Shown one piece after another: positions 163-26,297 of a DNA stretch of 26,297 nucleotides. How positions within the stretch are numbered: position 1 is the first letter of the stretch; each line of letters opens with the position of its first letter. The position numbers and the translations under genes were made by a program. Source of the DNA: a virus; IMG/VR virus record IMGVR_UViG_3300046000_011790, positions 1 through 26,297 of that record. One strand, given 5' to 3'. Below the pieces are notes generated by a model. The model did no database searches and was not told the DNA's origin. It was given only the letters and a program-made list of their open reading frames with translations.

Positions 163-573
163 TCAGCGCCCAATTTTTGAAAAACCATTTTCAGAATCAG
201 AATAAAAAATAGCTTTATATCCAACCCCATCCAATACCTTTTGGCAGTTCTTGCAAGGTTTTGCGATTGTTGTTTTATTGTTATTATCTATTCTAACATT
301 AACGAAAGTATAGCGCGAACAGTCTTCCTCTCCCAGCCGCAAAAGTGCGCTAATCTCAGAGTGCAAACAAGGTTGATAGTTTTGGGGGTTGTTTTTATAA
401 CCAACGTATTTTCCCATTTTGTGATAGGGATGGTGTTTGTTATAGTCGTTTGTACCAATGCTAATGAGGCGCTTTTTATCAAAGATGAATGTTGAGTGAA
501 AGCTGCGGCCATTTTGTTTTTGAGATCTCAGCCCAAAAGCTATTTCTACACATTTTTCCAATCTTTTGTCCAT
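163..573 (-). CDS. Zinc-dependent nucleoside/deoxycytidylate deaminase-like protein
   Basis: This 136-residue protein carries the two zinc-binding signatures of the cytidine/dCMP deaminase fold. They are HSE at residues 71-73 (the usual form is HAE; His is the zinc ligand and Glu the proton shuttle) and PCKNC at 106-110, with Cys107 and Cys110 as the other ligands. Members of this fold hydrolytically deaminate cytosine-containing nucleosides or nucleotides, and phage versions often feed dUMP/dTMP synthesis. The exact substrate cannot be read from the sequence, and a tRNA or nucleic acid substrate is also possible. The length is normal for a single-domain deaminase. The gene is divergent from the tail-tube-like gene at 607, with only 33 bases between start codons, and is the only metabolic gene on the minus strand here. 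Family call likely; substrate unknown. Confidence 0.75.
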   Translation of the reverse strand: MDKRLEKCVEIAFGLRSQKQNGRSFHSTFIFDKKRLISIGTNDYNKHHPYHKMGKYVGYKNNPQNYQPCLHSEISALLRLGEEDCSRYTFVNVRIDNNNKTTIAKPCKNCQKVLDGVGYKAIFYSDSENGFSKIGR

Positions 574-1530: not shown

Positions 1531-2253
1531 ATGGCAAAACCCAAAAAGTCAGTAGATGGTTCTGTTGAGATTGGTTCAGCAGAAAGAAGAATTGAATTTA
1601 AACCCCGCAAATTTAAATTTTCCGAAAAGCAAAAAAAGCTCTTAGAAATTTGTTTAAATCCTGAGACAAAAATTGTCTTTGTGACTGGCCCTGCTGGATC
1701 GAGCAAAACATTCATGGCAGTTTACTCTGCTCTTAATCTTCTTGCCGCTAATAAAGAGTGGGACATGACATACATTCGCAGCTTGGCAGAAAGTGCTGAT
1801 CGTGGCATCGGCAGCTTGCCAGGAACAGTAGAGGAGAAGTTCGCGCCTTTCATGATTCCCTTGGAAGATAAAATGGACGAAATCATCACTGCTCCCTCAA
1901 TGATTAATCTTAAAAAAGATGGAGTCATTAACGCTATACCAGTAAACTTTATTCGCGGCTCTAGCTGGACAAATAAAATCATTGTTTGTGACGAAGCTCA
2001 AAACTTTTCTAAAAAAGAATTAATCACCATAATTACTAGAATAGGTGAGAATGCTAAACTGTTTATTTGCGGCGATTTGATGCAAAGCGACATTCGCTCC
2101 AGTGGATTCAATCAGTTCAACGAACTGTTCGAAGGTGCTGATAGTGAAGCTCAAGGAATTCACGTTTTCAAATTTGATAAAGACGACATTTACCGCAGCG
2201 AAATATTAAAATTTATTGTTGGAAAATTGGAAAAATTAGACAAAAAGGTGTAA
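1531..2253 (+). CDS. phoH: PhoH-like P-loop ATPase
   Basis: This 240-residue protein is a single-domain PhoH-family ATPase. The Walker A motif is GPAGSSKT at residues 53-60. The Walker B motif is IIVCDEAQN at 150-158. A GDLMQSDI sensor-like segment follows, close to the GD.xQxD pattern of PhoH proteins and related helicase-like P-loop ATPases. PhoH-like genes are widespread in phages from marine and fresh water. Their role is unsettled, with RNA helicase/nuclease-associated or phosphate-stress functions proposed. The protein lacks PIN, KH or other extra domains and matches the short phage form. It starts 18 bases after the tail-tube-like gene, and a second ATG at 1527 is out of frame. No Shine-Dalgarno sequence is present; the leader is A/T only. 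Confidence 0.9.
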   Translation: MAKPKKSVDGSVEIGSAERRIEFKPRKFKFSEKQKKLLEICLNPETKIVFVTGPAGSSKTFMAVYSALNLLAANKEWDMTYIRSLAESADRGIGSLPGTVEEKFAPFMIPLEDKMDEIITAPSMINLKKDGVINAIPVNFIRGSSWTNKIIVCDEAQNFSKKELITIITRIGENAKLFICGDLMQSDIRSSGFNQFNELFEGADSEAQGIHVFKFDKDDIYRSEILKFIVGKLEKLDKKV

Positions 2254-3579: not shown

Positions 3580-4628
3580 ATGAACTAACAGAAGAGCAAA
3601 AACAATTCATTCGGGAGAATTACATGAAGATGCCCGATCTTAATGAGTTGACAAGAAATTGCTTTAAAAATACAGAACTAGATGGTCGCAAAAAGGAAGG
3701 CCGATTAGTGCGCCAATTCTTGATCGACAATAACTTTCAGTATTCAACGACTAAGAAAGTTAAAAGCGACGAGATTGAATTCACCAATTCTCAAAAAGAA
3801 TTTATTCTAATGCAGGCTCAGGCTGGACTCTCTTCCCTGCGCATTGCTGAAATCATTTTTAAAGATCGCGAAGTTAAAAAGTTAGGATTGGAGCAGAGGG
3901 CAGTTTTAGACTACATTCGTTCTGTTAATCCTGATTTTGTTATTGGCAATGAAAACGCTGCTTTGACAGAATATATTCCGCCAAAAGCTTTTAGCCGAGT
4001 CTTGAAAAAGATTAATGATGCAACTGGTTTACTTCTTGAAGAAAGTAAAATTTCCAGACAGTACAGAATATGCGTTGACAAACTAGGGATTAACCTTAGC
4101 AACTCGCGCTTCACTGCAATCATGAACAATTATCTTTCCATGAAGGATCGGTTATTGTTTGAGGAAGAATTTATTCGTTTAACTTGGGACAAGCCAGACC
4201 TCTCTGCTGACGAACTCAATTTGTATATGAACGTTTGCAAGGAAATCATTAACCTTGAAGTTATTGGCAAACACCTTAATAAACTAAACGAACAGTTTGA
4301 GGAAATCGAAGACCAGCAAGACATGAGTGTTCGCTTGGCTGAGATTATTAAAGCAAAATCTGGTGAATATCACCAATGCGAGGGACGTATTGAAAACTTA
4401 ACTAAAAAACTGCAAGGTGATCGCGCAGAAAGAATGAAAAGCAGGCATAAGGAAAATGCCTCTATCATTTCATTAGTTCAAATGTTCCAAGATGAAGAAG
4501 AGAGAAAGAATATGGTTAGAATCGCTGAAATGCAAAAAGAATTAATTTCAGAAGAGGCTAATCGCTTGGAAAGCATGGGCGAGTGGAAAGCGCGTGTCTT
4601 GGGAATTTCAAAAGATGATGTCATTTAA
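3576..4628 (+). CDS. DNA-binding protein with tandem helix-turn-helix repeats, candidate small terminase subunit
   Basis: This 350-residue protein starts with two similar segments, about residues 5-54 and 70-121. Each has TxxQKxFI, then a predicted helix-turn-helix with an FK(N/D) motif, then E-x-R-x-V-x-x-(F/Y). This indicates a duplicated DNA-binding domain. The C-terminal third (about 225-330) is highly charged, helical and likely coiled coil, suited to oligomerisation. DNA binding plus oligomerisation, two genes upstream of the large terminase, fits a small terminase that recognises the packaging site. The protein is long for that role, so another DNA-binding function is possible. It is translationally coupled to the sigma-like gene by ATGA. 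Confidence 0.5.
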   Translation: MNELTEEQKQFIRENYMKMPDLNELTRNCFKNTELDGRKKEGRLVRQFLIDNNFQYSTTKKVKSDEIEFTNSQKEFILMQAQAGLSSLRIAEIIFKDREVKKLGLEQRAVLDYIRSVNPDFVIGNENAALTEYIPPKAFSRVLKKINDATGLLLEESKISRQYRICVDKLGINLSNSRFTAIMNNYLSMKDRLLFEEEFIRLTWDKPDLSADELNLYMNVCKEIINLEVIGKHLNKLNEQFEEIEDQQDMSVRLAEIIKAKSGEYHQCEGRIENLTKKLQGDRAERMKSRHKENASIISLVQMFQDEEERKNMVRIAEMQKELISEEANRLESMGEWKARVLGISKDDVI

Positions 4629-5532
4629 CTGTTTAGAGTGTCGCGAAACTTTCGATTCGGAAAGAAGTCTTCATGCCCATATCAAAAAGCATGATATGTA
4701 TCTTCATGATTATTATGTTAAAAATTTTGAGAGGCGCGATTTAGAAACTGGAGAGCTTTTGCCTTTTAAAAATAAAGAGCAATATTTTTCTTCATTCTTT
4801 TCTTCTGATGAGAGTCAGTCTAAATTCTTTGAGAGGGATAATTTTGAAGCTCCATTGGTTTTATCAGAAATGCTGGAGAAAAAGACTAAAGATGGAGTTT
4901 GCCCTTCAGAGCTTGTTTTACGCAGTTATGGCCTTCCGAGTATATCCACATTCAAAAAGTTTTACAAGAGCTACACGGGCGCGTGTGAGGCCGTGGGAGG
5001 CAAGCCAATGTTTAACGGTAGATTACCAAAAGATTTTTCCGATAAAGTAAACGCTAAAATATTCATTGATACTCGCGAGCAGCAACCTTTGAGTTTCTCA
5101 AACAGCGAATCTCTCAAATTAGATTTGGGAGACTACGCAATTGAAAATAAGTTTTTTAACTATACTTTTGTTGACCGTAAAGCGGAGGGGGATTTTAAAT
5201 CCACCTTGAGTCAAGACAACTTTGAAAGATTTCGCCGCGAACTCCAGAGAGCTAAAGAGCAAGACTCTTATATTTTTGTAGTCGTGGAAAGCGATCTAAA
5301 ACAAATCGAAGCTAATAATAAAAAGACAAAACATCAGGCAAACTTAACTTATATTTATCACAATATGAGAGCTTTGCAATTTGAGTTTTCTGATTGTTGT
5401 CAATTTATTATGACTTCTAACAGGGAAAATAGTCAAAAAATAATTCCTCGACTACTGAAGCATGGTAGAAGCTTGTGGAATGTTGACTTACAATACTATA
5501 TTAACGAGGGATTATTAAATGGCTTGGATTGA
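4618..5532 (+). CDS. C2H2 zinc finger - ERCC4-type nuclease
   Basis: This is a 304-residue protein. The N-terminus has a C2H2 finger: Cys5, Cys8, His21, His25, with spacing C-x2-C-x12-H-x3-H. The C-terminal half has the ERCC4/XPF-Mus81 nuclease signature. It consists of IDTRE at residues 150-154, LGDYAI around 170-175 and VDRKAEGDF at 185-193, the last matching the (E/D)RKxxxD catalytic motif. ERCC4 nucleases cut branched or flap DNA with a metal ion. A role in resolving concatemers or trimming branched replicative DNA before packaging is inferred from the position next to the large terminase, which it overlaps by 14 bases. Two adjacent ATGs (4615 and 4618) could both serve, and an ATG at 4594 would overlap the previous gene by 35 bases. 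Family call strong; role inferred. Confidence 0.75.
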   Translation: MSFNCLECRETFDSERSLHAHIKKHDMYLHDYYVKNFERRDLETGELLPFKNKEQYFSSFFSSDESQSKFFERDNFEAPLVLSEMLEKKTKDGVCPSELVLRSYGLPSISTFKKFYKSYTGACEAVGGKPMFNGRLPKDFSDKVNAKIFIDTREQQPLSFSNSESLKLDLGDYAIENKFFNYTFVDRKAEGDFKSTLSQDNFERFRRELQRAKEQDSYIFVVVESDLKQIEANNKKTKHQANLTYIYHNMRALQFEFSDCCQFIMTSNRENSQKIIPRLLKHGRSLWNVDLQYYINEGLLNGLD

Positions 5533-7427: not shown

Positions 7428-9395
7428 ATGTCTAGGTCATATAACAAAAAAAGTTCTTATTGGAAAAAGTTTGAACAAAAGTCTGCCCCCAACTTTTCTG
7501 AACAAATTCAAGCGGGGATTGATCCTGTATTAGCGGGAGAACCCTTTTACACATCTGACGCATCAGTTGTTTTCCAAACTGCCAAAGCTTCTCGCGAAGG
7601 TCTTTCTCGAACAGAAGCTACAAGCGGGAGAGTTAACAGAGCGGCGCTAGCTCCTACATTTGACAGGTACAGCAGCATTCGTGCTGGCATGTTGCCCTAC
7701 AGCTTCTCCAACGATGGCGTTTATATTCGCGAGGCTATCGAGTTGTGTCAGAAGGCTTACGCTAATGTTCCCATTTTCCGCAACGCTATTGATTTGATGT
7801 CGGAATTTTCTAATGGCGAAATTTATCTGGAAGGTGGCACTGAAAAAGCGCGAGATTTCTTTTATCGCTGGATGCGTAAAATCCGCATGTGGGATTTAAA
7901 GGATCAGTTCTTCCGCGAATACTATCGCAGCGGTAATATTTTCATTTACCGCACGGATGGTAAGTTTGACTTGGAAGACTTCAAGAAGCTTTCAACCGCT
8001 TACGCAGCAGAAGGAGACATTGTTGCCAACACTATTCCTCTAAAGTATATTTTGCTAAACCCGTTTGATATTGTGGCTAAACGAGCTACAACCTTTAGCT
8101 CTGTTTCCTACGAAAAGGTTTTATCTGAGTACGACTTGGAACGTTTGCGCCATCCTCAAACAGAAGAGGACAGGGAGCTTTTAAATTCTTTCCCAGAAAA
8201 CGTAGTTAAAGATATTAATCGTGGAGGTTTTGCCAAAAACGGATTGAAGATTAAAATTGATCCAGTAAAACTACATTTTTCCTTTTACAAAAAACAAGAT
8301 TATGAACCTTTCGCTATCCCTTTTGGCTTCCCTGTTCTTGCAGACATCAATGCCAAGCTCGAACTCAAGAAGATGGATCAAGCCATTACTCGAACCGTTG
8401 AGAATGTCATTCTACTTATCACAATGGGCGCACCTCCCGACAAAGGAGGAATCAACCACAACAATCTCAAAGCAATGCAAGACCTCTTCCGAAACGAATC
8501 TGTCGGAAGAGTGCTCATCTCAGACTACACAACAAAAGCTGACTTCGTTATTCCAGACCTTAACAAGGTTCTTGGCCCACAAAAATACGAAACCTTAAAC
8601 AAGGACATTGAACAGGGTCTTCAAAACATTTTCTTTGGCGATGACAAGTATGGTAATATCGCCACTAAGATTGACATGTTTATTGATCGTCTCAAAGAGA
8701 GCCGCCAAGCTTTCTTGAACGAGTTCTTGCAGCCAGAAATTAAAAGAATCTCTAAAGCTCTAGGTTTTCGCGCTTATCCAGAAGCTCGCTTCAAGGAAAT
8801 TGATTTCAAAGACAACACTCAACTTCTTCGCGTTACCACTCGTCTCATGGAGCTTGGCGTTATCACTCCACAGCAAGGTCTTACAGTGTTCAACACTGGT
8901 CGATTCCCGCAGGCGGAAGAGATCGCTCCTGCTCAAGCAACCTTCGTTTCTGATCGCGAGAAAGGATACTACAATCCGATTGTTGGTGGAGTGCCTGTTA
9001 TGCCAAGTGCGGAAGCGGGCGTTAATGAAACACCCAAGAGTGCTGGTCGCCCAGAGGGTGCAATTACGGAAGCGAATTTCTCACGCAAAAACATTCAAGA
9101 AATTGTTTATAGGATTGAAGCTCTAGACTCTTTCGCAAAAGCAAAAGCAAAAGAAAATATGAACATCAAAAAGCTCTCAAAGCAGCAAACTTCTGCTATC
9201 GAGGAGCTTTGCAAAAAGATTGTTTGCGCTCATGATTTAGATAATTGGGAAGCAAACGCTTTAGAATGTGTAAAAGATTTTAGCAAAATTGAATCACTAG
9301 GTCTTCTTGATGAGGTTTCGGAAATTGCCGAGTCTCATCAATTGGATTTTTATTCTGCCGCCATTCTCCATCACAGTAAAAATTATGAATCCTGA
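7428..9395 (+). CDS. Portal protein
   Basis: This 655-residue protein sits directly after the large terminase and before the head protease, the canonical portal position. Portal-like features include an early helical stretch with AIELCQKAYANVPIFRNAID, a segment FFREYYRSGNIFIYR typical of the wing/stem region of portal proteins, and a long helical C-terminal part. The twelve-subunit portal ring forms the DNA entry vertex and docks the terminase and neck. The upstream TTG at 7425 is rejected in favour of ATG 7428. A stretch near 8390-8600 uses more C-ending and CTC/ATC codons than the rest. The gene end overlaps the next gene by 11 bases. Position and length give good confidence; no catalytic motif exists to confirm it. 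Confidence 0.85.
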   Translation: MSRSYNKKSSYWKKFEQKSAPNFSEQIQAGIDPVLAGEPFYTSDASVVFQTAKASREGLSRTEATSGRVNRAALAPTFDRYSSIRAGMLPYSFSNDGVYIREAIELCQKAYANVPIFRNAIDLMSEFSNGEIYLEGGTEKARDFFYRWMRKIRMWDLKDQFFREYYRSGNIFIYRTDGKFDLEDFKKLSTAYAAEGDIVANTIPLKYILLNPFDIVAKRATTFSSVSYEKVLSEYDLERLRHPQTEEDRELLNSFPENVVKDINRGGFAKNGLKIKIDPVKLHFSFYKKQDYEPFAIPFGFPVLADINAKLELKKMDQAITRTVENVILLITMGAPPDKGGINHNNLKAMQDLFRNESVGRVLISDYTTKADFVIPDLNKVLGPQKYETLNKDIEQGLQNIFFGDDKYGNIATKIDMFIDRLKESRQAFLNEFLQPEIKRISKALGFRAYPEARFKEIDFKDNTQLLRVTTRLMELGVITPQQGLTVFNTGRFPQAEEIAPAQATFVSDREKGYYNPIVGGVPVMPSAEAGVNETPKSAGRPEGAITEANFSRKNIQEIVYRIEALDSFAKAKAKENMNIKKLSKQQTSAIEELCKKIVCAHDLDNWEANALECVKDFSKIESLGLLDEVSEIAESHQLDFYSAAILHHSKNYES

Positions 9396-14190: not shown

Positions 14191-15336
14191 TTAAGCAAAG
14201 GCTAGAGGGGAAGCTCCAGAGAAGTAGATACCGTGAACAAGGTCATTCGGGCCACCAATCTGAGTGGAGAAGCTGATGTCAACACTCTTGTTTGAACCAA
14301 TGTCTGAGGAGTAGCTTTCGCTGTCAAGACGAGCGGCTGCAAAAGTATATTTAACAGCAGGAGTGCTTGTTCCAGGAGAATTGATTGTGAGAGTAATGCT
14401 TCTCTCGCTACCGTCATCAATCATGTCGGCAAGGTTGCGAGCTTGCACTTCGTTTACTAGAGCATTTACGCTCATAGTTGCAGTAACAGGGAAATCTGTT
14501 ACACGGGCGAAGGCGAAGCGGCTTCCGAGACGCTCAATTGGAGTACGGCTCATTGGGAGGCTCAAGCTAACACTTTGGATGTTGATTGCATCTGAACTAT
14601 TGTCAACAGTAGATGTTGGAGTACCGCCAGTGCTAGTGAAACCGCCAAAGCTTAGAGTAATATCTCCAGGGCGAAGAGCGGTTACGCCATCACCTGTGCT
14701 TGGAATAGGTAGTTTGATATAGTCACCTGTACCAGTGAACAATTTAGTTCCTAGAGCTGGGTTGATGGCTGGGCCTACAAAGCCAGTAACGTTACCGCTA
14801 ATGCCGTAAGTTGCAGCGCAGAAACCAAGACCTTCGACGGAAACGGAAACAGTTGGCAGATCACCAACAGCAGCGTTAAGAGTGTAGTCGGTAATGAAAC
14901 CATTACCAACACCAATAACTCCTTTGCCACTTAGAGCGGTTGCTCCAGTGTTATAGTTAAGGTCAATACCTTCACTATCAGTGACGATGTAAAAGTTGAT
15001 GCCAGATGAGCTAACCATTTGACCTGATGCGAAGTTACCAACGGTAACAGGGCCAGCAGGAGCGCCAGTTCCTTGAACGTAGAAACCAAGAGCGGATTCA
15101 TTGAATCCGTCAGCTAGGTAATATGATAGGTCAAGGCTTACAGTCGGAGACTGAAGCACAAGAGCATCAATACGAGCAAGCTGACCAAATTGGTTAACAT
15201 CTTGACGAGTGATTTCAAAACTATAATTAGCACTCTGCACGCGCTTTAGTTGCTTGTGTTGTGCTCCAGAGATTGAATTTAGACCGCTGCTTACAAACAG
15301 CCCTTCAGATTGATAGATTACGCGATTTCTTGCCAT
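14191..15336 (-). CDS. Major tail tube protein
   Basis: This 381-residue, beta-rich, Gly/Ser/Thr-rich protein lies last in the minus-strand neck-tail block, the expected place for the major tail protein. It seems to hold two related beta domains. The start SGLNSISGAQHKQLKRVQS and the repeated pattern SVSLSLPMSRTPIERLGS followed by FPVTATMSVNALVNEV resemble tube proteins that stack as hexameric rings. Its end pattern (YTFAAARLDSESYSS, then KSVDISFSTQIGG) is also typical of tube-type subunits. The diverged paralogue at 607-1512 shares the same order of strands. A bidirectional terminator lies 12 bases past the stop. The tube function is inferred from position, composition and paralogy. Confidence 0.65.
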   Translation of the reverse strand: MARNRVIYQSEGLFVSSGLNSISGAQHKQLKRVQSANYSFEITRQDVNQFGQLARIDALVLQSPTVSLDLSYYLADGFNESALGFYVQGTGAPAGPVTVGNFASGQMVSSSGINFYIVTDSEGIDLNYNTGATALSGKGVIGVGNGFITDYTLNAAVGDLPTVSVSVEGLGFCAATYGISGNVTGFVGPAINPALGTKLFTGTGDYIKLPIPSTGDGVTALRPGDITLSFGGFTSTGGTPTSTVDNSSDAINIQSVSLSLPMSRTPIERLGSRFAFARVTDFPVTATMSVNALVNEVQARNLADMIDDGSERSITLTINSPGTSTPAVKYTFAAARLDSESYSSDIGSNKSVDISFSTQIGGPNDLVHGIYFSGASPLAFA

Positions 15337-15381
15337 AAAAGAAAGTTTGACTTATTTACATCTAAAATGTTTAAATGAGAA

Positions 15382-16254
15382 TTAATTTCTTGAGTATCTC
15401 ATCATAGAGATGTCAAAATCAATAAAGCCGACATAAAGATCATTAACTAATGACTTTCGAGCTTTGTCATTCATTTTAGAAGTTGTTACTTTATCAACGA
15501 AGTATTTGTTGTTGTTGACGTATTTTGTTTTTAAATTTTGATAATTGTAATAGCCGCTTTTTAAATCTCCATATTCTGTGAATGGATATTCATCAAATGG
15601 AATGTCTGTGATCACCTCATTGAATGAATCCGCGAAAATAGAGAGAACGCCATCTAATTGATAAGGATTCTCAGCAATTACCACAGCGTTAAGGTTAGTC
15701 ATTGTTTGATTCATTCCTCCAAACGCGAAAGGTTTGTTTTGGAAAGCGGCATTGCAAATGTAGATTGCTGGAACAACTTGGTCGTATGGTTGAATGTATG
15801 TGATGTTTTCGTCTGTCGCAATTCTTCTGTTTACGACGAATTTTTTCTCAACTAAAATGTCTTCTTCTGTATCGTTTGAATAATAAACATTAAAATCTTT
15901 CACTGCGAAAGAACCAGTAACAGTTGAACCTGTAGCTAATCCGCTAATCAAAGCGCGGCCATTGTCAAAGTCTAAAACTCTTTGAGCAGAACTATTATCC
16001 ACTCCAGTAGCGCGACCATAAAAGGTGCCGCCAACAAAAACGCCTGAAGGAATAGCTGCGCCACTCACTGAATAGTCTGACACCCACTGCTTGTATGGAC
16101 TTCCAAAAACAGAATAAACGTTTGGCAGTCTTTCGTCTGAATAATTGTAAAAACGACCAGTTGTATTAGAGTAGGCTTGACCCTTGGTTAGCAAGTAATT
16201 GTCAAACCAAAGCGTAAAAGATGAGGCTAATTTGTGTTGATATTGTGGGGTCAT
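15382..16254 (-). CDS. Tail completion/terminator-like structural protein
   Basis: This is a 290-residue protein. It begins MTPQYQHKLASSFTLWFDNY, a helix at the position where siphovirus tail terminator proteins start, then becomes beta-rich with many Tyr, Asn and Asp residues. It follows the gp10-like gene with an ATGA overlap and precedes the tail tube gene by 45 bases. In the standard siphovirus order (head closure, neck, tail completion, tail tube) this is the tail completion slot. It is too short for a contractile sheath protein. I see no motif that proves the role. Confidence 0.5.
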   Translation of the reverse strand: MTPQYQHKLASSFTLWFDNYLLTKGQAYSNTTGRFYNYSDERLPNVYSVFGSPYKQWVSDYSVSGAAIPSGVFVGGTFYGRATGVDNSSAQRVLDFDNGRALISGLATGSTVTGSFAVKDFNVYYSNDTEEDILVEKKFVVNRRIATDENITYIQPYDQVVPAIYICNAAFQNKPFAFGGMNQTMTNLNAVVIAENPYQLDGVLSIFADSFNEVITDIPFDEYPFTEYGDLKSGYYNYQNLKTKYVNNNKYFVDKVTTSKMNDKARKSLVNDLYVGFIDFDISMMRYSRN

Positions 16255-16874
16255 AATATTCCTGAGATGACTACTGAATTGTTTATTTGTTGGAAGCGTT
16301 TAAGGTATTTATTCATCAATGCCGAAATGTATGGCGTATTTTTAAACTTTCCTGTTCTAATTACACCATTTACTTGAACACCTTCGCCCGAACGACTATA
16401 CACGCTTTCGGTATTTAAATATTGTCCAAAACCAGATATTCCGCGCTCTATGCCTTCCGCCCAACTGCGACCACTAGCCCACGGCATAGGAGTCTCAGCA
16501 AATATTTCTTGTTTAGATGGTAGGTAAATTGTCATGATGAAACCATCTTTAGTTTCTCTATTGTATTCAATTCTACTAAGATTAAGAAGTCCTTCTATGC
16601 TGTCTGTTGGACTGTCTCCCTCGTCGAAACCAATGAAAGAAAAAAGATTGCCATAACCTCCCAATGTTCCGCTAGAATTTTCTGCAAAAGGCCCAGATTT
16701 TATTTCTACAGTAATTGGATGATTCTTGAACTCAGCCAGCATTTCTCGCTTAATTTTGTTGAAGGCTGTGACTATTCGCTGCTGAAAAGCTTTGCTATAC
16801 GTTTGCGCAACTTTTTTACTTACAAAAGCTGACAGTTGTTTCTCAAGATTGCGAGTTGTGATTTTCTTTGCCAT
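16251..16874 (-). CDS. HK97 gp10-like neck/tail-connector protein
   Basis: This is a 207-residue protein. A basic helical N-terminus (LEKQLSAFVSKKVAQTYSKA, then AFNKIKREMLAEF) is followed by a beta-rich middle (HPITVEIKSGPF, FIMTIYLPS) and a C-terminal helix. This is the layout of HK97 gp10-like neck proteins, which join the head connector to the tail. It starts within the stop codon of the head-closure-like gene (TAATG) and overlaps the next gene (ATGA), so the three are translated together. The assignment is by layout and order. Confidence 0.5.
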   Translation of the reverse strand: MAKKITTRNLEKQLSAFVSKKVAQTYSKAFQQRIVTAFNKIKREMLAEFKNHPITVEIKSGPFAENSSGTLGGYGNLFSFIGFDEGDSPTDSIEGLLNLSRIEYNRETKDGFIMTIYLPSKQEIFAETPMPWASGRSWAEGIERGISGFGQYLNTESVYSRSGEGVQVNGVIRTGKFKNTPYISALMNKYLKRFQQINNSVVISGIL

Positions 16875-17317
16875 TACTCATCTACAGGTGTTAAAACGAA
16901 TTCGTAATATTGTGGGCCAAACATTCCCAAGGGTTTACCATCGCTTTTAATGGAGAAACGGCGACCATCAAGCTCAACTCTTTTCGCTTCTTTAACGTAT
17001 TCGTAGCCTTCCAAGTTGACTTTAATTTTTACTGTTCCTGTTGGGAGAATAATCTTGTCTTGGCCAGGGCCAGGGTTTTTCAAAAGCTCCTCATTCATAT
17101 CGACATATTTGATTCGAGCTTGGAAAGCTTGAGAAACTTCTGTTGTCGCAGTATTGGAAGTTTGCTGCCTATACAATGCGTTGTAAGTTGGCGAGGAAGC
17201 GATAACGGTTCTTTGGCCGATTTTAAACACAGTAATTTCACGCGCAAAGGTGTCGTGAATCTGGTCAATGATTGACTTGATGTTAGTTTTTTGGTTTTCT
17301 GATAAAAATCCAGCCAT
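16874..17317 (-). CDS. Head closure/connector-like protein
   Basis: This is a 147-residue protein. A short N-terminal helix (NIKSIIDQIHDTFA) leads into a beta domain starting REITVFKIGQRTVIASS, with a later KIILPTGTVKIKVNL strand pair. Small beta-barrel head closure proteins (SPP1 gp16, HK97 gp7-like) have similar length and place. It is the first gene of the minus-strand neck-tail block. A GTGTAA element on the minus strand (17334-17329) lies 17 bases before its start, and no Shine-Dalgarno sequence is visible. The exact neck role is inferred. Confidence 0.5.
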   Translation of the reverse strand: MAGFLSENQKTNIKSIIDQIHDTFAREITVFKIGQRTVIASSPTYNALYRQQTSNTATTEVSQAFQARIKYVDMNEELLKNPGPGQDKIILPTGTVKIKVNLEGYEYVKEAKRVELDGRRFSIKSDGKPLGMFGPQYYEFVLTPVDE

Positions 17318-19502: not shown

Positions 19503-22500
19503 ATGGCACAAGCAATCAACGCTCCACTCAATGTTCAAGTTCAAAATGGTCGTCAGTTAACGCAGCAAGTTCAGGCTTCGTTAAATGCCGTTCGTTTAAA
19601 TTTGGGAAACGGCAAAGCTTTAAGCTCACTTTCTCAACCACTTGGCCGATTGACTGGACAAGCTGACGAGTTCACTAAATCTCTTGACGCTGCTAATGCC
19701 CGTGTTTTGGCGTTCGGCGCTTCTGTTGGTATCGTTAATGCCTTTTCTAATGCTTTTAAAAGTTTAGTAAATTCTACCATTGAAGTAGAAAAAGCAATTA
19801 AAGCCATCTCAGTTGTTGGTGATCAGTTTAACGGAAAAACTAAACAGCTAACGCAAGGTCTTTTTAACGTAGCTAAAGTTACTGGCCAAAGCTTTGCGGA
19901 AGTTTCTAAAGCTGCTCTTGAATTCTCTCGTCAAGGTCAAAATGTTGAAGAAACTTTAAGACGAACTCAAGATGCTCTTATTCTTACTCGATTGACTGGT
20001 TTAGATGCTGCAAAAGCTGTGGAAGGTCTTACTGCCGCAGCTAACGGATTTACCAAGGCTGGTTTGAACACGACTCAAATCTTGAACAAGCTCGTTGCTG
20101 TTGACCAAGCTTTCGCCGTTTCATCCGCTGACCTTATCGAAGGTTTTAACCGATCCGCCGCTGTTGCTGAAAATGCTGGTGTAACATTTGATGAACTAGC
20201 TGGTATTATTACAGCATTGCAGCAGAAAACATCTCGCGGTGGTGCAGTTATTGGTAATGCCCTTAAAACAATTTTCACTCGCCTTCAAGATACAAGTACT
20301 CTTAATCAGTTACAAGGTTTAGGAATTGCTGTTCAAGACTTGCAAGGTAATTTATTACCTGCAAGACAAATTTTACAAAACTTAGCTAAAGATGTCGAAG
20401 GTCTTGGTCAAATTACTAAAGCTGGTATTTTTAAAGATGTGGCTGGAGCTTTCCAGATTAACCAGTTAATTTCTTTAGTTTCAGATTTAAATAGTCAAAA
20501 TAGCATTGCCGCTGATGCTACTAGAAAATCGACTGGAGCAACAAATGAAGCTTTTTTAGCTAATGAAAAACTCAGCCAATCTCTTGACGCAATCATTAAT
20601 AAAGTTTCATTAACTGGTCAACAGTTAGGCTCTTTGATTGGGGAACTTGGTCTTGCAGATAGTTTCAAAAGTATTCTTAGTGGAATCAATGGTTTCTTAG
20701 AAGGCGCTACGGACTTGCTGCAAGGAGACGATTTAGGTGCTAAGTTCGCTAAAGGTATTGTCAAAGGCATTGGCGCAGTATTAACTGGCCCTGGTCTTGG
20801 TATTTTTTTGGCAGTTATTGGTAAATTAACTCTTGACTTGGTTAAGTTTGGTAGTCAGAGTATCAAAGCTTTCTTTGGCATTGGCCAAGCAGCAAAACAA
20901 CAGCAGCAAATTCAAGAGTCTATTGTTCAAACACTTTTGAGAAATGAGAATGTTTTAAGAACGATCTTAAATACTCAAGGTGGTCAAAATGCTCAAGCTC
21001 AAGCTTTTTTAGGAATTTTAAATCAGCAAGAAAAAGCTCTTCAAAGCATCAGAAGTCTTGCTGGCGGTATTGCCGCACCTGTAATTGCTGCTGGTTATGG
21101 TGTTGGATCAGAAGGAGGCATTCAGCGCAGGGGCCGCGCTGCTGGCGGCTACTTGCCCGCTCAGGAAGCCTCAGATGTTCGCCGTGGTGTTGGCGGCGCT
21201 TCACCAAATTCTAAAGTTGTTTCTATCCCGAACTTTGCGTTTGGCGGCGGCAAGCGCGGCACAATGATCGCTAATACTAGCGAATATATTGTTCCTAATT
21301 ATGCTGGCGGTGGTTCTGCCATCTTTAATCAAGACATGGTGAAGACCATGGGTTTGCCTGCTGGAGCAAAGAAGATCGGTGCGGCTAGTGGGTATGTTCC
21401 GAATTTTGCTAATTTCAATGTCCAAACTAGAAAAAAAAGAAAAGAAAAAGATGCCAATATCATTAATGATATTAAAATTGGAGGGATGTCTCCTTCCGCA
21501 TATTTAACTTTAGGAAGTGGTGCTAGAACTAATGCTGGAAAATTCAGAGATTTACAAACTACAGCGCAAGAAATTTTACAGCAAAGATTGGGGCCAATTA
21601 GTCAATCTGCAAAAATCGAAGGATCAGGAATTGAATTTATTAATCTAAATAGATTACAAAGCACTTATCTTTCTGGCGGAGAATTAGTCTCCGATATTAC
21701 GGATTTAAGATTAAATATTAATTCTGGTCAAGTTAATAAAAGTGATTTAGGTCAGAGACTTCGAAATATTGCAAACAAAATTTTACCTCAAACTCCAGGT
21801 AAATTAGATGATGGTTTGCGCGAGCAGTTAGAGTCAGAAATTTTTAGCACTAGCCAAGCAAAATTTAGCGCTGGAAATATATTTGAGCAGGTTTTAGTTA
21901 AAACTGTTTCGGGCCAATTAGCTGAAAAAAATAGTAAAACTTGGGATTTACCAAAAAATATGTCAGCAGCGTTCAAAAAACGCTTTGGTATTGGCAGTGA
22001 ATTTGGAGATATTAAATTAGGTATTTCTCCGTCTAGCGTTTCTTCATTTATTGGCAAGCATATTATAAATCCAACAGGAGATAATAAATCATCAGCTTCT
22101 AATGGCTATATCCCCAACTTTGCTGATTCTAATTTCACCAACGATCAGTTGGGAGTTCTTGGGCTTTACGGTTCAAATGAACCAATTAACGGTTCTCCAG
22201 TCTATACCTTTGAAAGTAACCGTCCAGAATTTTATAAAGATATTAAATCTGGTTATCAAAAGCGAATAACAGGTTTTGTGAATAGTTATTCAAAACAAAT
22301 TGCTAGTAAAATTGGAGGCGGATTTCAAGTTTCCCCCAAAGCAGTTATTAAATCTTTAGATTCTACAGATAGAATTTCTGGTTTTATCTTTGAAGATGTA
22401 ATGAATCAACTTGCAGGCCCAAACTTCGATACTAATCGAGTTAGTGGCAATGTTAGAATTGATTTTCCAATGACCAGTAATTTGCGTGAAGTATTTGGCG

Positions 22501-25500
22501 TAACTGGAGCACAAAGATTTGCTGAAGTTAAATTAACTCCACAAGAACAAATTTCTAGCGTTATAGAAAAACAACAGGCTCTAGCGAGAGCTTTGGCTAC
22601 TGGAGGATACACACCTAAAGAAACTGATTCAAAACTTATTGAGGAACTTAGGAAAGAAGCTATAGAAGTTGAGTTTGGGAAAGGTGGACGACCAAAAATT
22701 GAATTAAAGGATAGGAAAAAAGCTTTTATCCAAAAGATGCGCAGTTCTGGTTTATTAACTCAAACTTATCTTGGACAAGGTGCTGATGAAACAAATGCGA
22801 TCAAAAAAGTTTTAGGATTAGCTTCTACTGGTTATATTCCTAACTTTGCCGCTTCTGCTCTTCAAGAAGCTATTGCCCGCGAAAAGAACGCTGGGCTTTC
22901 CAGTTCTCAAATTTATGTTGACCAAAGCTCGGCGCTAAAGTCCGCCTCAAATCCAATGGGATTAATGGTGGCAAATACTCGCGATGAGCCTAGCGGCGGT
23001 TTCCAAGGTATCGCACGCGCACGCAGGGAAGGATCTAATCCTAAAACTTATGGTGCCTCTAAAGGATTCGTGCCAAATTTTGCTCCACCAGCGCCAGTAG
23101 GCACTGGCCCAAATGATCCTTTTACTGGAGCCTTACCAAAGTCTATTGCTAATAATGCGCAGAAGCTTCAAGAATTCGCAAAATTAATTGACGATATTAA
23201 TAAAAAATTAAGCAAAAATAAAATCACTCAAGACGAAGCAAATAAAAAACTTGAACAATTTGTTACTGGAATCAAGGCTGGTAGTCAAAATTTAAATCCA
23301 ACAAAGGGGAAAGGATTGCAAGCTGTACAAGCCGCACAATCTCAGTTAATTTCTCCACAAGAAAAAGTAGCTTCTGGTTTTGGAGATGTTGCTGGCAAAG
23401 TTTTCTTGGCTCAAAGTGCTTTAGCATTTTTCAATGGAGCTATTGAAGATACCGAAAATTCTTTTGCAAAACTAACCGCTCAGATTACTACATCTATAGG
23501 TAATATTGCTTCTTTAGGTCTTATTGGTTCGCAAATTGCTTCAATGAATCCCACTACAGCTTTTGGGGGTTTTATTAAAGGATTAGGTTTAGCGGGAATT
23601 GGCGCTGCTGGAATTTACGAAGGGTTTAAATTATTAGATTTTGGAATTAAAGAATTCTCTGGAGAAAATGCTAAAGCTGCACTGGCTTCGGCAAAGCTTG
23701 CAGAAGCTTCTGATAAATTATCAGTAAAATTCGATTCTTTATCAAAAGTAAGGCAAAACGAATTAACGACACAAGCTAGTAAAATTTTAGGCGAGTCTGG
23801 TTTTAAAAGTTTAATAGGCAGTATTTTTGGCTCAGAAAAAGGCGGTGGAGAAATTGGTGGTAACGTTGATGTTCAAAAAGCTGTTGCTCAATTATCCGCT
23901 TTAGGAGCTAGCGAAACCGATATTAAAAAAATTCTAGAAGGAAGCAGGAAGTTTTCTAAGCAAACTATTGGAGTTTATGGCGGGACGGGATCAAGAGAAG
24001 TTGTTACAGACGTTACTCAAGTTTCAGATGTAGTTTCTGGTTTAGAAGAAGCTTTATCATCTGGTTTAGGTAAAACTTTAAATACTCAATTTAAATCTTT
24101 TGAAACAGCTTTGTCTGGAATAGATTTAACAAAAGCTGGTGGAGCCGCTTATACAGTAGGAGCCAAAGCTTATGGAAAAGAAAAATTTTCAGAATTAAAC
24201 CCTGAGCAACAAAAATTAGTTAAAGAAAGAGTCAAACAAGAAATTGAATTAAATAAAGAAAAATCGCTTCAAATACAAGCCGATCAAAAAATCGCTCTTG
24301 GAGAGAAGGTTTCTGTTGAACTTGCCAAACTAAAATTAGACACTTTGATTGAACAGAAAAAAGCAGCAATAGACCTAAACACAGTTCAAGGTACTGACAG
24401 TCTTCGTTTTCAATTGGAAACTTTAGATGTTTCAGAATCATACAGAAATGAATTGGAAAAACAAATAAAAGTAAAGGAAATTGAAGCAGAATTATCTAAG
24501 ACAAATTTAGGATTAGTTAGCGCAGTCATTGATAAATTATCTTCTCTTCCTAGTGACAGTGTTTTGGGGGTTAGCGCCGATCAGTTTAAAACTATCGCTT
24601 CCGAATTAGAAGATTTAGATATAAAATCAGTTAAAGATTTAGATAATGCTATTTTTGAAATAGGTGGGGGTCTTAGTTTAACTAAAGATCAATTGCAGAA
24701 TATTCTCGATCTTTATAGAGAACAATTTAATCAAGCTCAAAAAAATGCAGACGCTCAAAAGCTATCCATTACTAATGCCGCTGATTTTACAAGAAGAGTT
24801 ATTGATTCAAAAAATGCCTTAGAGTCAGCTAGATTATTAACGGAAAAAATCGCATCAGATTTGGAAAGAGCTGGTCGAGTTCGCATTTCCGTAGAGGAAG
24901 TACAAATTGGTTCTTTAGAAAATCAAGCTAAACTTTTAAGAGAGCGAGCTAGCGCAACTACAAATACTTCAGAGCAAAGAGGTTTAAATAACGCAGCCAT
25001 TGCATTAGATAAAAAAATAAATGATGCTCGCGCCACCTCTGCTGAAAAAACATATCAAAGCGAAAAAAAGGCAGCAGAACTCAGAAGAAACACTGCGGCT
25101 GGAGAATTAATGCGGATACAAAACGCAAAAGATTTTTTAAATAATCCTCAATACGATAAAAATCAAATTGAAGCCGCTAAAAAAGCTTACGCAGATGTAG
25201 AAGCAGAACTCAGAATACTGGACAACACTCAGCAAAAAACTCGCGAAAGTTTTACGGCAACGAACGAATCTCTCGATCTTCAAGCTCAAGCAATTTACAG
25301 GTTAACTTCTGCTACAGACGCTTACCGCAACACTCTCTTGCAATTTAGAGAAGGGGCTGGAGAAAGAATTGGCGCTGCTGATATTAGTATTCTTTCTGCA
25401 ACCGATCCAACCTCATTGGCGACTGCCACCATTCAACGCAAAGTTGAAATGGAAGCTTTAAACAAAGGGTTGCAGGGCGAAGACTACTACAAATCTGTTA

Positions 25501-26297
25501 TTCAAGGAACAGAATTGGAGAAAAAAAGATTCGAACTCTCCACGGAAAATTCTAAAGTTCGCAAAATCGAATTAGAACGCGAACTAAGGTTAATGGAAGA
25601 TATTGCTAAAATTTCAGCCGCTACTGATGAAGAGCGTCTTGCTAAAATCAAAGAAATTATTGCTGCAAGGCAGCAGGAATCTCAAACTTTTGGTTCTGGT
25701 TTTACACAAGGAGTTGCTGATTTAAGCGATAAAACTCAAAACTTTAAAAACGAAATTGGCCGCGAAATCCCTAACCTTTTTGCTTCTAATCTTGCTCAAG
25801 GATTGAATGATGCAATCTCTGGAGCTAAGTCTCTCAAAGATGCTCTTAGAGATGCGGCCACATCTTTCCTCAACGCTATAACTCAAAAGAATGTTGAAAA
25901 CATAGCTAATCTTGTCACGGGCGGTGTCGGCAATGTTGCACAATCTTTTTTCGCTTCTGGTGGTCAAGTTAATGGCGGTTCTGGTGTCAAAGATGACGTT
26001 CCAGCAATGCTCATGGGTGGCGAATATGTGATCAGAAAATCTGCCGTTAAAAAATATGGCTCTAAATTCTTGGACTCCCTAAACAATGGCGGCATCAAAG
26101 CTTTTGCCAAAGGTGGCGGCGTTCAGAGTGGTCGCGGAGGCTTCTACGTCCCTGGCGACTACGGCGAGGGAGCAATCACTGGAAAAGGTCAACTCTTAGC
26201 TTTTGCTGGTCAGAGCTTCACTGGCGGTCAATATGACCAAGTTGGAGTTTCTGGAATGAGCGGAGCTTCTATTAATCTAGAATCTGAAAGCGCTAGA
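19503..26297 (+). CDS. Tail tape measure protein with PNFA repeats and nuclease-like modules (3' end beyond the window)
   Basis: The frame is open from ATG 19503 to the window edge (2265 codons). The N-terminal part (about residues 110-310, e.g. SADLIEGFNRSAAVAENAG and TSRGGAVIGNALKTIFTRL) matches the TP901-type tape measure core domain. A hydrophobic segment lies near 420-445 and a second near 1326-1377. The middle (575-1195) carries five PNFA and one PNYA motif and two nuclease-like modules. Long coiled coils follow. The segment near 2165-2195 (DDVPAMLMGGEYVIRKSAV) is the Gly/GEYVI-type motif common near the C-terminus of tape measure proteins. Tape measures set tail length and help DNA entry; at roughly 0.15 nm per residue, 2265 residues suggest a tail of 300 nm or more, less if the insert is not extended. 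AAGGAATAAGG precedes the ATG. Confidence 0.88.
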   Translation, partial: MAQAINAPLNVQVQNGRQLTQQVQASLNAVRLNLGNGKALSSLSQPLGRLTGQADEFTKSLDAANARVLAFGASVGIVNAFSNAFKSLVNSTIEVEKAIKAISVVGDQFNGKTKQLTQGLFNVAKVTGQSFAEVSKAALEFSRQGQNVEETLRRTQDALILTRLTGLDAAKAVEGLTAAANGFTKAGLNTTQILNKLVAVDQAFAVSSADLIEGFNRSAAVAENAGVTFDELAGIITALQQKTSRGGAVIGNALKTIFTRLQDTSTLNQLQGLGIAVQDLQGNLLPARQILQNLAKDVEGLGQITKAGIFKDVAGAFQINQLISLVSDLNSQNSIAADATRKSTGATNEAFLANEKLSQSLDAIINKVSLTGQQLGSLIGELGLADSFKSILSGINGFLEGATDLLQGDDLGAKFAKGIVKGIGAVLTGPGLGIFLAVIGKLTLDLVKFGSQSIKAFFGIGQAAKQQQQIQESIVQTLLRNENVLRTILNTQGGQNAQAQAFLGILNQQEKALQSIRSLAGGIAAPVIAAGYGVGSEGGIQRRGRAAGGYLPAQEASDVRRGVGGASPNSKVVSIPNFAFGGGKRGTMIANTSEYIVPNYAGGGSAIFNQDMVKTMGLPAGAKKIGAASGYVPNFANFNVQTRKKRKEKDANIINDIKIGGMSPSAYLTLGSGARTNAGKFRDLQTTAQEILQQRLGPISQSAKIEGSGIEFINLNRLQSTYLSGGELVSDITDLRLNINSGQVNKSDLGQRLRNIANKILPQTPGKLDDGLREQLESEIFSTSQAKFSAGNIFEQVLVKTVSGQLAEKNSKTWDLPKNMSAAFKKRFGIGSEFGDIKLGISPSSVSSFIGKHIINPTGDNKSSASNGYIPNFADSNFTNDQLGVLGLYGSNEPINGSPVYTFESNRPEFYKDIKSGYQKRITGFVNSYSKQIASKIGGGFQVSPKAVIKSLDSTDRISGFIFEDVMNQLAGPNFDTNRVSGNVRIDFPMTSNLREVFGVTGAQRFAEVKLTPQEQISSVIEKQQALARALATGGYTPKETDSKLIEELRKEAIEVEFGKGGRPKIELKDRKKAFIQKMRSSGLLTQTYLGQGADETNAIKKVLGLASTGYIPNFAASALQEAIAREKNAGLSSSQIYVDQSSALKSASNPMGLMVANTRDEPSGGFQGIARARREGSNPKTYGASKGFVPNFAPPAPVGTGPNDPFTGALPKSIANNAQKLQEFAKLIDDINKKLSKNKITQDEANKKLEQFVTGIKAGSQNLNPTKGKGLQAVQAAQSQLISPQEKVASGFGDVAGKVFLAQSALAFFNGAIEDTENSFAKLTAQITTSIGNIASLGLIGSQIASMNPTTAFGGFIKGLGLAGIGAAGIYEGFKLLDFGIKEFSGENAKAALASAKLAEASDKLSVKFDSLSKVRQNELTTQASKILGESGFKSLIGSIFGSEKGGGEIGGNVDVQKAVAQLSALGASETDIKKILEGSRKFSKQTIGVYGGTGSREVVTDVTQVSDVVSGLEEALSSGLGKTLNTQFKSFETALSGIDLTKAGGAAYTVGAKAYGKEKFSELNPEQQKLVKERVKQEIELNKEKSLQIQADQKIALGEKVSVELAKLKLDTLIEQKKAAIDLNTVQGTDSLRFQLETLDVSESYRNELEKQIKVKEIEAELSKTNLGLVSAVIDKLSSLPSDSVLGVSADQFKTIASELEDLDIKSVKDLDNAIFEIGGGLSLTKDQLQNILDLYREQFNQAQKNADAQKLSITNAADFTRRVIDSKNALESARLLTEKIASDLERAGRVRISVEEVQIGSLENQAKLLRERASATTNTSEQRGLNNAAIALDKKINDARATSAEKTYQSEKKAAELRRNTAAGELMRIQNAKDFLNNPQYDKNQIEAAKKAYADVEAELRILDNTQQKTRESFTATNESLDLQAQAIYRLTSATDAYRNTLLQFREGAGERIGAADISILSATDPTSLATATIQRKVEMEALNKGLQGEDYYKSVIQGTELEKKRFELSTENSKVRKIELERELRLMEDIAKISAATDEERLAKIKEIIAARQQESQTFGSGFTQGVADLSDKTQNFKNEIGREIPNLFASNLAQGLNDAISGAKSLKDALRDAATSFLNAITQKNVENIANLVTGGVGNVAQSFFASGGQVNGGSGVKDDVPAMLMGGEYVIRKSAVKKYGSKFLDSLNNGGIKAFAKGGGVQSGRGGFYVPGDYGEGAITGKGQLLAFAGQSFTGGQYDQVGVSGMSGASINLESESAR
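21873..22016 (+). other. Nuclease-like module 1 within the tape measure (PD-(D/E)XK pattern)
   Basis: Residues 791-838 read GNIFEQ (Glu795), then WDLP (Asp815), then GDIKL (Asp836, Lys838). The order E...D...(D/E)xK is the active-site pattern of PD-(D/E)XK nucleases. It lies between the PNFA motifs at 633 and 871. This is a pattern match, not a proven fold. Confidence 0.4.
22380..22532 (+). other. Nuclease-like module 2 within the tape measure (PD-(D/E)XK pattern)
   Basis: Residues 960-1010 read GFIFED (Glu964), then IDFP (Asp987), then AEVKL (Glu1008, Lys1010). The Asp-to-(Asp/Glu) spacing, 21 residues, is identical to module 1, and the flanking G-x-I-F-E and FG(I/V) match too. It lies between the PNFA motifs at 871 and 1113. 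Together the two look like a duplicated domain. Confidence 0.4.

Follow-up and report, generated by a model that had tools for sequence, protein, structure and literature searches.

Motif-bounded, exchangeable cassettes with PD-(D/E)XK-like modules in a phage tape measure protein

The DNA analysed here (the window, an IMG/VR viral fragment of 26,297 bases, record IMGVR_UViG_3300046000_011790) ends in a long open reading frame (ORF) for a tape measure protein (TMP), as identified by the matches to the Pfam family PhageMin_Tail (E=1.1e-28, residues 125-315) and to the PHROG tail length tape measure family (E=1.6e-50). In this protein, two intervals bounded by PNFA-type motifs, referred to here as cassettes, each contain a small module (Table 1), for which the first-pass annotation had suggested a PD-(D/E)XK-type active site and a role as an injected effector domain. 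The coordinates and the Glu, Asp, (Asp/Glu) and Lys residues given there for the two modules are exact, each module lies in its own motif-bounded interval, and the spacing between the Asp and the (Asp/Glu) is 21 residues in both, with FGI at 828 and FGV at 998. The motif common to the two modules, in which GxIFE (GNIFE 791-795 and GFIFE 960-964) is followed by DxP and then by (D/E)xK, is also confirmed, except that 19 and 22 residues, instead of the reported 20 and 23, separate GxIFE from DxP. The TMP has exactly two copies of GxIFE and two of DxPx18(D/E)xK, always together. A degenerate DNA pattern for the GYIPNFA-type motif has 3 matches in the window and none in 100 shuffled versions of it.

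Table 1. Features of the tape measure protein gene, with residue numbers of the protein and positions in the window
Feature	Residues	Position	Strand	Basis or remark
TMP ORF		19503..26297	+	2265 aa; last gene of the window, 3' end beyond the contig
Hydrophobic segment	418-450	20754..20852	+	Hydropathy; upstream of the cassette region
First conserved PNFA/PNYA pair	576-579 and 598-601	21228..21305	+	Fixed backbone; same positions in relatives
GYVPNFA, left boundary of cassette 1	630-636	21390..21410	+	80% identity to L002 stops at residue 637
Cassette 1	637-867	21411..22103	+	PNFA-bounded interval
Module 1 core, PD-(D/E)XK-like	790-853	21870..22061	+	E795, D815, D836xK838, K852; leave-out profile and column conservation
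GYIPNFA between cassettes 1 and 2	868-874	22104..22124	+	Motif match
Cassette 2	875-1109	22125..22829	+	PNFA-bounded; 46-48% identity to L005 and L003 modules
Module 2 core, PD-(D/E)XK-like	958-1023	22374..22571	+	E964, D987, E1008xK1010, K1023; leave-out profile and column conservation
GYIPNFA, right boundary of cassette 2	1110-1116	22830..22850	+	Motif match
GFVPNFA, end of the cassette array	1188-1194	23064..23084	+	L002 homology resumes at residue 1182

Relatives of this TMP were collected by its N-terminus (35 viral contigs) and by the degenerate GYIPNFA DNA pattern (at least 120 further stretches), and in nearly all relatives found by the N-terminus the TMP has a PNFA-bounded interval with a G-x-[ILV]-F-E...D...(D/E)xK segment. 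A family profile, started from 26 seeds picked by G.[ILVM]FE and then iterated, defines a domain family with, among the matches listed, 113 module copies (101 of them distinct), which are spread over 106 ORFs from related, uncultured phages. The PNFA-type motif is present in all 106 module ORFs, as compared with 149 of the 1932 ORFs overall, and a module is found in 102 of the 129 ORFs that have at least two motifs; the loci were partly retrieved by the motif, so that this association is partly due to the sampling, the N-terminus set being independent of the motif. The family profile gives no match with the reversed ORFs. When 107 other modules are used for the profile, with those of the window and their close relatives excluded, it recovers module 1 (i-Evalue 1.4e-7) and module 2 (1.8e-6) at Z=5000, both in the catalytic register. 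The two window modules belong to one domain family, and their resemblance is not due to chance.

Outside the key columns, the median pairwise identity of the modules is as low as 19%, and the first-pass expectation that the Glu, Asp, (Asp/Glu) and Lys residues do not vary freely is borne out, as these are invariant or nearly so across about 100 very divergent modules. Over the 101 distinct modules, the Asp is conserved in 100, the (Asp/Glu) column has Asp in 55 and Glu in 46, and the Lys is present in all; the lone exception for the Asp (the sequence RLDIAF of L127) is apparently an alignment shift by two residues. The downstream column has Lys in 79 and Gln in 14 of 95 modules. In the GxxFE element, the Gly is found in 101 of the 101, the Phe in 89 (with Tyr in 7) and the Glu in 94 (with Asp in 6 and Gln in 1), but the seeds were selected for Gly, Phe and Glu, and the conservation of these three is therefore partly the result of selection, whereas the Asp, the (D/E)xK and the Lys/Gln had no part in the seed choice. 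The spacing between the Lys and the Lys/Gln is 14 in most modules, and that between the Asp and the (Asp/Glu) is 19-37, mostly 21-27. Near-invariant polar residues at this level of identity are the behaviour of an active site and not of a spacer. The modules could also be inert spacers, being globular insertions that are tolerated or that tune the length of the TMP, with a conservation that reflects folding only. TMPs are known for their length variation, and the lengths in the relatives are indeed from about 2200 to 3300 aa; on the other hand, the near-invariant columns besides the E/D, D, (D/E)xK and K/Q are only the Gly and Phe of GxxFE, whereas for a spacer the positions of the hydrophobic core would be kept, not residues of catalytic type. 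Such a passive role is very improbable.

The cassettes are exchanged between TMPs, and the exchange follows the motif. The window and its relative L002 are 80.5% identical over residues 4-637, after which there is no such alignment until residue 1182. When alignments of at least 60% identity are compared among 122 TMPs, 58% of the alignment ends in the cassette region fall on the motif, as compared with 8% for random positions, and 77% fall within 10 residues of it, as compared with 16%, the pairs not being independent of each other. In nine pairs of TMPs the cassette is 15-31 percentage points more similar than the backbone, and this excess similarity is direct evidence of transfer. Not every cassette in every pair has moved: cassette 1 is about 43% identical to its counterpart in L149, and for module 1 (42.8%) this similarity equals that of the backbone (43.3%), and module 1 is therefore vertically inherited in that pair. 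A recent acquisition of module 1 by the window is accordingly ruled out with respect to L149; the difference at this slot lies instead with the closer relatives, the cassette being missing from it in L002 and L005-L008.

In 313 motifs, the codon entropy is the same as that of the background (1.57 versus 1.61 bits for the Pro and 1.74 versus 1.77 bits for the Ala). As the codon use in the motif is as varied as elsewhere, GYIPNFA is selected as protein and not as DNA, and the varied synonymous codons argue against a role of the PNFA motif at the DNA level, in recombination or in homing. The motif may be a linker, a docking site or a processing site. It has also been considered whether the modules are selfish elements of the homing type, in which the nuclease would cut TMP genes that have no module and its own cassette would then be copied in. 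The cassettes do move between TMPs, and nuclease genes at the boundaries of phage genetic exchange are described in PMC10448857, which would fit; however, cassettes with no nuclease (GNAT, P-loop and unassigned ones, see below) use the same boundaries, and it is the protein sequence of the boundary motif that is conserved while its synonymous sites vary freely, so that there is no shared DNA target. Homing is regarded as very improbable.

Other enzymes occupy the same slots in the relatives. A PNFA cassette of the L132 TMP holds a staphylococcal nuclease domain (Pfam SNase, 1.9e-9, above the cut-off, residues 445-638, locus 8760-9341 on the minus strand), and GNAT acetyltransferase domains are found in cassettes of L087 (1.3e-4, above the Pfam cut-off) and L082 (0.0024, below it). 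L007 has a probable P-loop NTPase cassette (AAA_30, 5.6e-4, below the cut-off), close relatives of which occur in many TMPs. A second cassette family with an E-D-ExK pattern ('SAVDGYK...LLEVKSG') has 16 matches in the same slots, and its profile aligns to that of UPF0102 over the E, D and ExK (P=5e-4 for the single comparison), which suggests that a canonical nuclease type probably shares the PNFA slots. Domains of disparate activity within one TMP are thus seen in the relatives, the window itself having only the two nuclease-like modules, and in the best reading of these sequences PD-(D/E)XK-like nucleases are the commonest type of cargo. Separately, a recurrent cassette with kinase-like motifs (GxGxxGxFYRLG, VKKF, DLHGSNY and DPG) is seen in L014 (13379-13963, plus strand), L021, L034 and L086, the L014 copy matching no Pfam family; HAD-like cassettes (DWDGT, DYDYT) are recognised by eye in L101 (853-1281, plus strand), L052 and L149 (929-1528, minus strand), and an ART-like one (LYRGQS...SFSTS) in L135 (678-1331, minus strand). 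These kinase-, HAD- and ART-like assignments, and a metallopeptidase-like one, were made by eye, Pfam gave no confirmation of them, and they are not relied on.

It is possible that the nuclease-like domains serve the DNA or the virion of the phage itself, for example when the leading end of the DNA is trimmed or anchored or when the tail is joined to the head, and do not act on the host. In tailed phages the TMP in the tube touches the leading DNA end, and at least one such domain is present in most relatives. A housekeeping function of this kind would nevertheless call for a single conserved domain in a constant position, whereas the number, the location and the sequence of the modules differ from phage to phage, modules are replaced even where the backbones of two phages are 80% identical, and unrelated enzymes are found in the same slots. 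This explanation is considered improbable. The injected-effector role proposed in the first-pass annotation is strengthened, while still being a matter of interpretation, because the cassettes are exchangeable and because other enzyme domains (SNase, GNAT) occupy the same slots.

The order E-D-(D/E)xK-K/Q is the signature of the PD-(D/E)XK superfamily, and the order E/D, D, (D/E)xK and K/Q is present in both window modules and in the family. In members of Mrr_cat the FE is at the start of helix A, as in the modules when compared by eye. The AlphaFold2 models of modules 1 and 2, calculated from 52-53 divergent rows per module, have the layout helix (with the E), strand (D), helix, strand ((D/E)xK) and helix (K/Q), in which the order of the residues fits and the strands are tiny; these are low-confidence models from shallow alignments (pLDDT 73 and 69, pTM 0.51 and 0.58). 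The order and the conservation of the active-site residues thus agree with the first-pass reading of a PD-(D/E)XK site; the fold is not confirmed by the models, nor is a link to a known family by the profiles. Several observations weigh against a nuclease assignment, in addition to the selection of the seeds mentioned above. The restriction endonuclease-like core, of the order alpha-beta-beta-beta-alpha-beta, is not recovered, as the AlphaFold2 models have no recognisable core of this type and Foldseek searches with them find nothing in the PDB or in BFVD; given the low confidence of the models and their shallow alignments, this does not refute the fold. In hhalign comparisons of the module family with two known PD-(D/E)XK families, Mrr_cat and UPF0102, the links are not significant (probabilities of 0.2 and 0.4%), whereas the positive control, Mrr_cat against UPF0102, gives 85.6%; the best local paths of the non-significant comparisons do place FE on FE and DxK on ExK. 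Pfam and PHROG scans match neither window module convincingly and provide no family for them, weak matches of module 2 to Pfam PsiA and others (E=0.07) having been dropped as chance, and a Pfam scan of 52 family members gives no match to a nuclease family. The modules, a cassette-rich TMP and the conserved terminal interval are all without a match among cultured phages. Finally, self-damage in the producing cell is a difficulty for an assignment of this kind.

The resemblance of the modules is therefore best described as that of an active-site signature, with membership of the superfamily not established by these comparisons. The ordered E, D, (D/E)xK and K/Q are shared with PD-(D/E)XK families such as Mrr_cat (PF04471), UPF0102/YraN (PF02021), the Holliday resolvases and the type II restriction enzymes; unlike these families, the modules have a predicted helix between the D and the (D/E)xK, have no confirmed four-stranded core, and are located inside a TMP. 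It is conceivable that the modules are exchangeable cargo enzymes of another kind, such as a nucleotide- or phosphotransfer enzyme, in which a different fold carries the E/D/(D/E)/K/K-Q site, or that they bind a phosphate ligand. The lack of both structural and profile matches to nucleases, the mainly helical AlphaFold domain, in which a helix separates the strand of the D from that of the (D/E)xK, and the presence of non-nuclease enzymes such as GNAT in neighbouring slots would all be accommodated. Yet the order E-D-(D/E)xK-K/Q, together with the GxxFE helix, makes up the classical PD-(D/E)XK pattern, a second cassette family with canonical spacing is in the same slots, and the D to (D/E) spacing of 19-37 overlaps with that of known type II enzymes such as EcoRI and BglI. 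A non-nuclease cargo is regarded as unlikely, although it is to be taken seriously.

We favour, at slightly better than even confidence, the reading in which the TMP is a carrier of exchangeable enzyme cargo and the two cargo domains of the window are PD-(D/E)XK-type nucleases that are delivered early in infection. The backbone holds, from about residue 630 to 1195, an array of exchangeable globular cassettes between GYIPNFA-type motifs, and each of the window cassettes would contain one small metal-dependent nuclease domain with the E on helix A, the D on one strand, the (D/E)xK on the next and the K/Q on the helix after that. TMPs line the tail tube and exit before the DNA. The cassettes would travel in the tube as parts of the TMP and, on its ejection ahead of the DNA, would reach the cell envelope or the cytoplasm, where they may cut nucleic acid (the host chromosome, resident plasmids or prophages, or components of defence systems), with GYIPNFA working at the protein level between the cargo units. 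Of the 63 long TMPs in this set, 62 have a hydrophobic segment ahead of the cassettes, and 48 have a second one within 400 residues after them. Host entry of the cassettes with the DNA is suggested by analogy with other TMPs (PMC13190303, PMC13277306); the lambda TMP, for example, receives label from ManZ at the inner membrane while injection is under way (PMC13190303). In a broader form, held with rather less than even confidence, the TMP of uncultured tailed phages that form a widespread group would be a general delivery platform with motif-delimited, interchangeable effectors that are released or docked, by which several types of nuclease, acetyltransferases, P-loop and other, unassigned enzymes would be injected at the very start of an infection and would be exchanged like the domains of polymorphic toxins.

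A wider scan with one module clade yields only 14 loci, mostly contigs of the TMP set, and a peptide-pattern scan of IMG/VR for direct relatives of each single module confirmed none. In bacterial genomes the GYIPNFA pattern finds 107 stretches, mostly chance single matches, and a module is present in three only; these are contigs of metagenome-assembled genomes (L197, Verrucomicrobiales; L209 and L246, Flavobacteriaceae), which are weak hints of a host at best. The segment at the end of the array ('AIAREKNAGLSSSQIYVD...NPMGLMVAN..DEP..GGFQGI', residues 1117-1194) is found again ahead of the final PNFA motif in several relatives and has no match among cultured phages. Elsewhere in the window, a gene at 4594-5529 (plus strand) encodes a C2H2-like finger and an ERCC4-type nuclease (phrog_3490, 1.4e-12; Pfam ERCC4, 8.3e-6); it is immediately upstream of the terminase large subunit gene and is the second nuclease of the window. 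Four minus-strand genes (14191-17317) interrupt the plus-strand run of late genes, three of them having been scanned with no PHROG match, and the left end has a cytidine/dCMP deaminase-like gene (163-573, minus strand, Pfam 8.5e-7) and a PhoH-like gene (1531-2250, plus strand, 2.2e-41).

TMPs are usually regarded as rulers, in some cases equipped with a domain that cuts the cell wall; the TMP described here appears to have a changeable payload of intracellular enzymes, and the simple GYIPNFA-type motif makes such cargo-bearing TMPs easy to find. A survey of 2023 reported a mosaic signal in TMPs of which genuine cases were not confirmed (PMC10684548), and the motif-bounded exchange described here supplies such cases. 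No description of swappable enzyme cassettes in phage TMPs was found in titles and abstracts on TMP nuclease, effector or cargo, nor was a paper pairing 'PNFA' with 'tape measure' found in a search whose coverage leaves out most subscription journals and bioRxiv preprints. If the cargo is delivered, catalytic effectors would be injected before any gene expression, with consequences for the takeover of the host, for counter-defence and for competition.

A close precedent in concept is that of the polyvalent proteins of phages and conjugative elements, by which phages inject multi-enzyme polypeptides (PMC5512222). As in these, unrelated enzyme domains are present in one virion-associated polypeptide with predicted entry into the host with the DNA, and the protein is encoded by a virion gene, being the TMP, with the terminase large subunit in the same window. 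The differences are that the carrier is a TMP, a term that does not occur in the text of PMC5512222, and that a short repeated motif marks off the cargo units and is the place of their exchange. A folded enzyme domain in a TMP is also known from mycobacteriophage TM4 (PMC1796659) and from YomI of the Bacillus phage SPbeta (annotated as a transglycosylase), but those domains act on the cell wall, whereas the cassette domains are similar to nucleases and to enzymes of the cytoplasm. The TMP-related effectors of contractile injection systems provide a further comparison: Tme of Streptomyces davawensis has a C-terminal endonuclease (PMC11126660), and Sle1 of S. lividans is a delivered effector with interchangeable functional domains (PMC13277306). 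These have one C-terminal domain (in Tme, EndA-type with DUF4157), whereas the window protein, in which a Pfam scan up to the contig end matches neither DUF4157 nor EndA and gives only PhageMin_Tail above the cut-off, is a true phage TMP with internal cassette arrays. Delivery of the cargo would link phage TMPs to these TMP-derived effectors.

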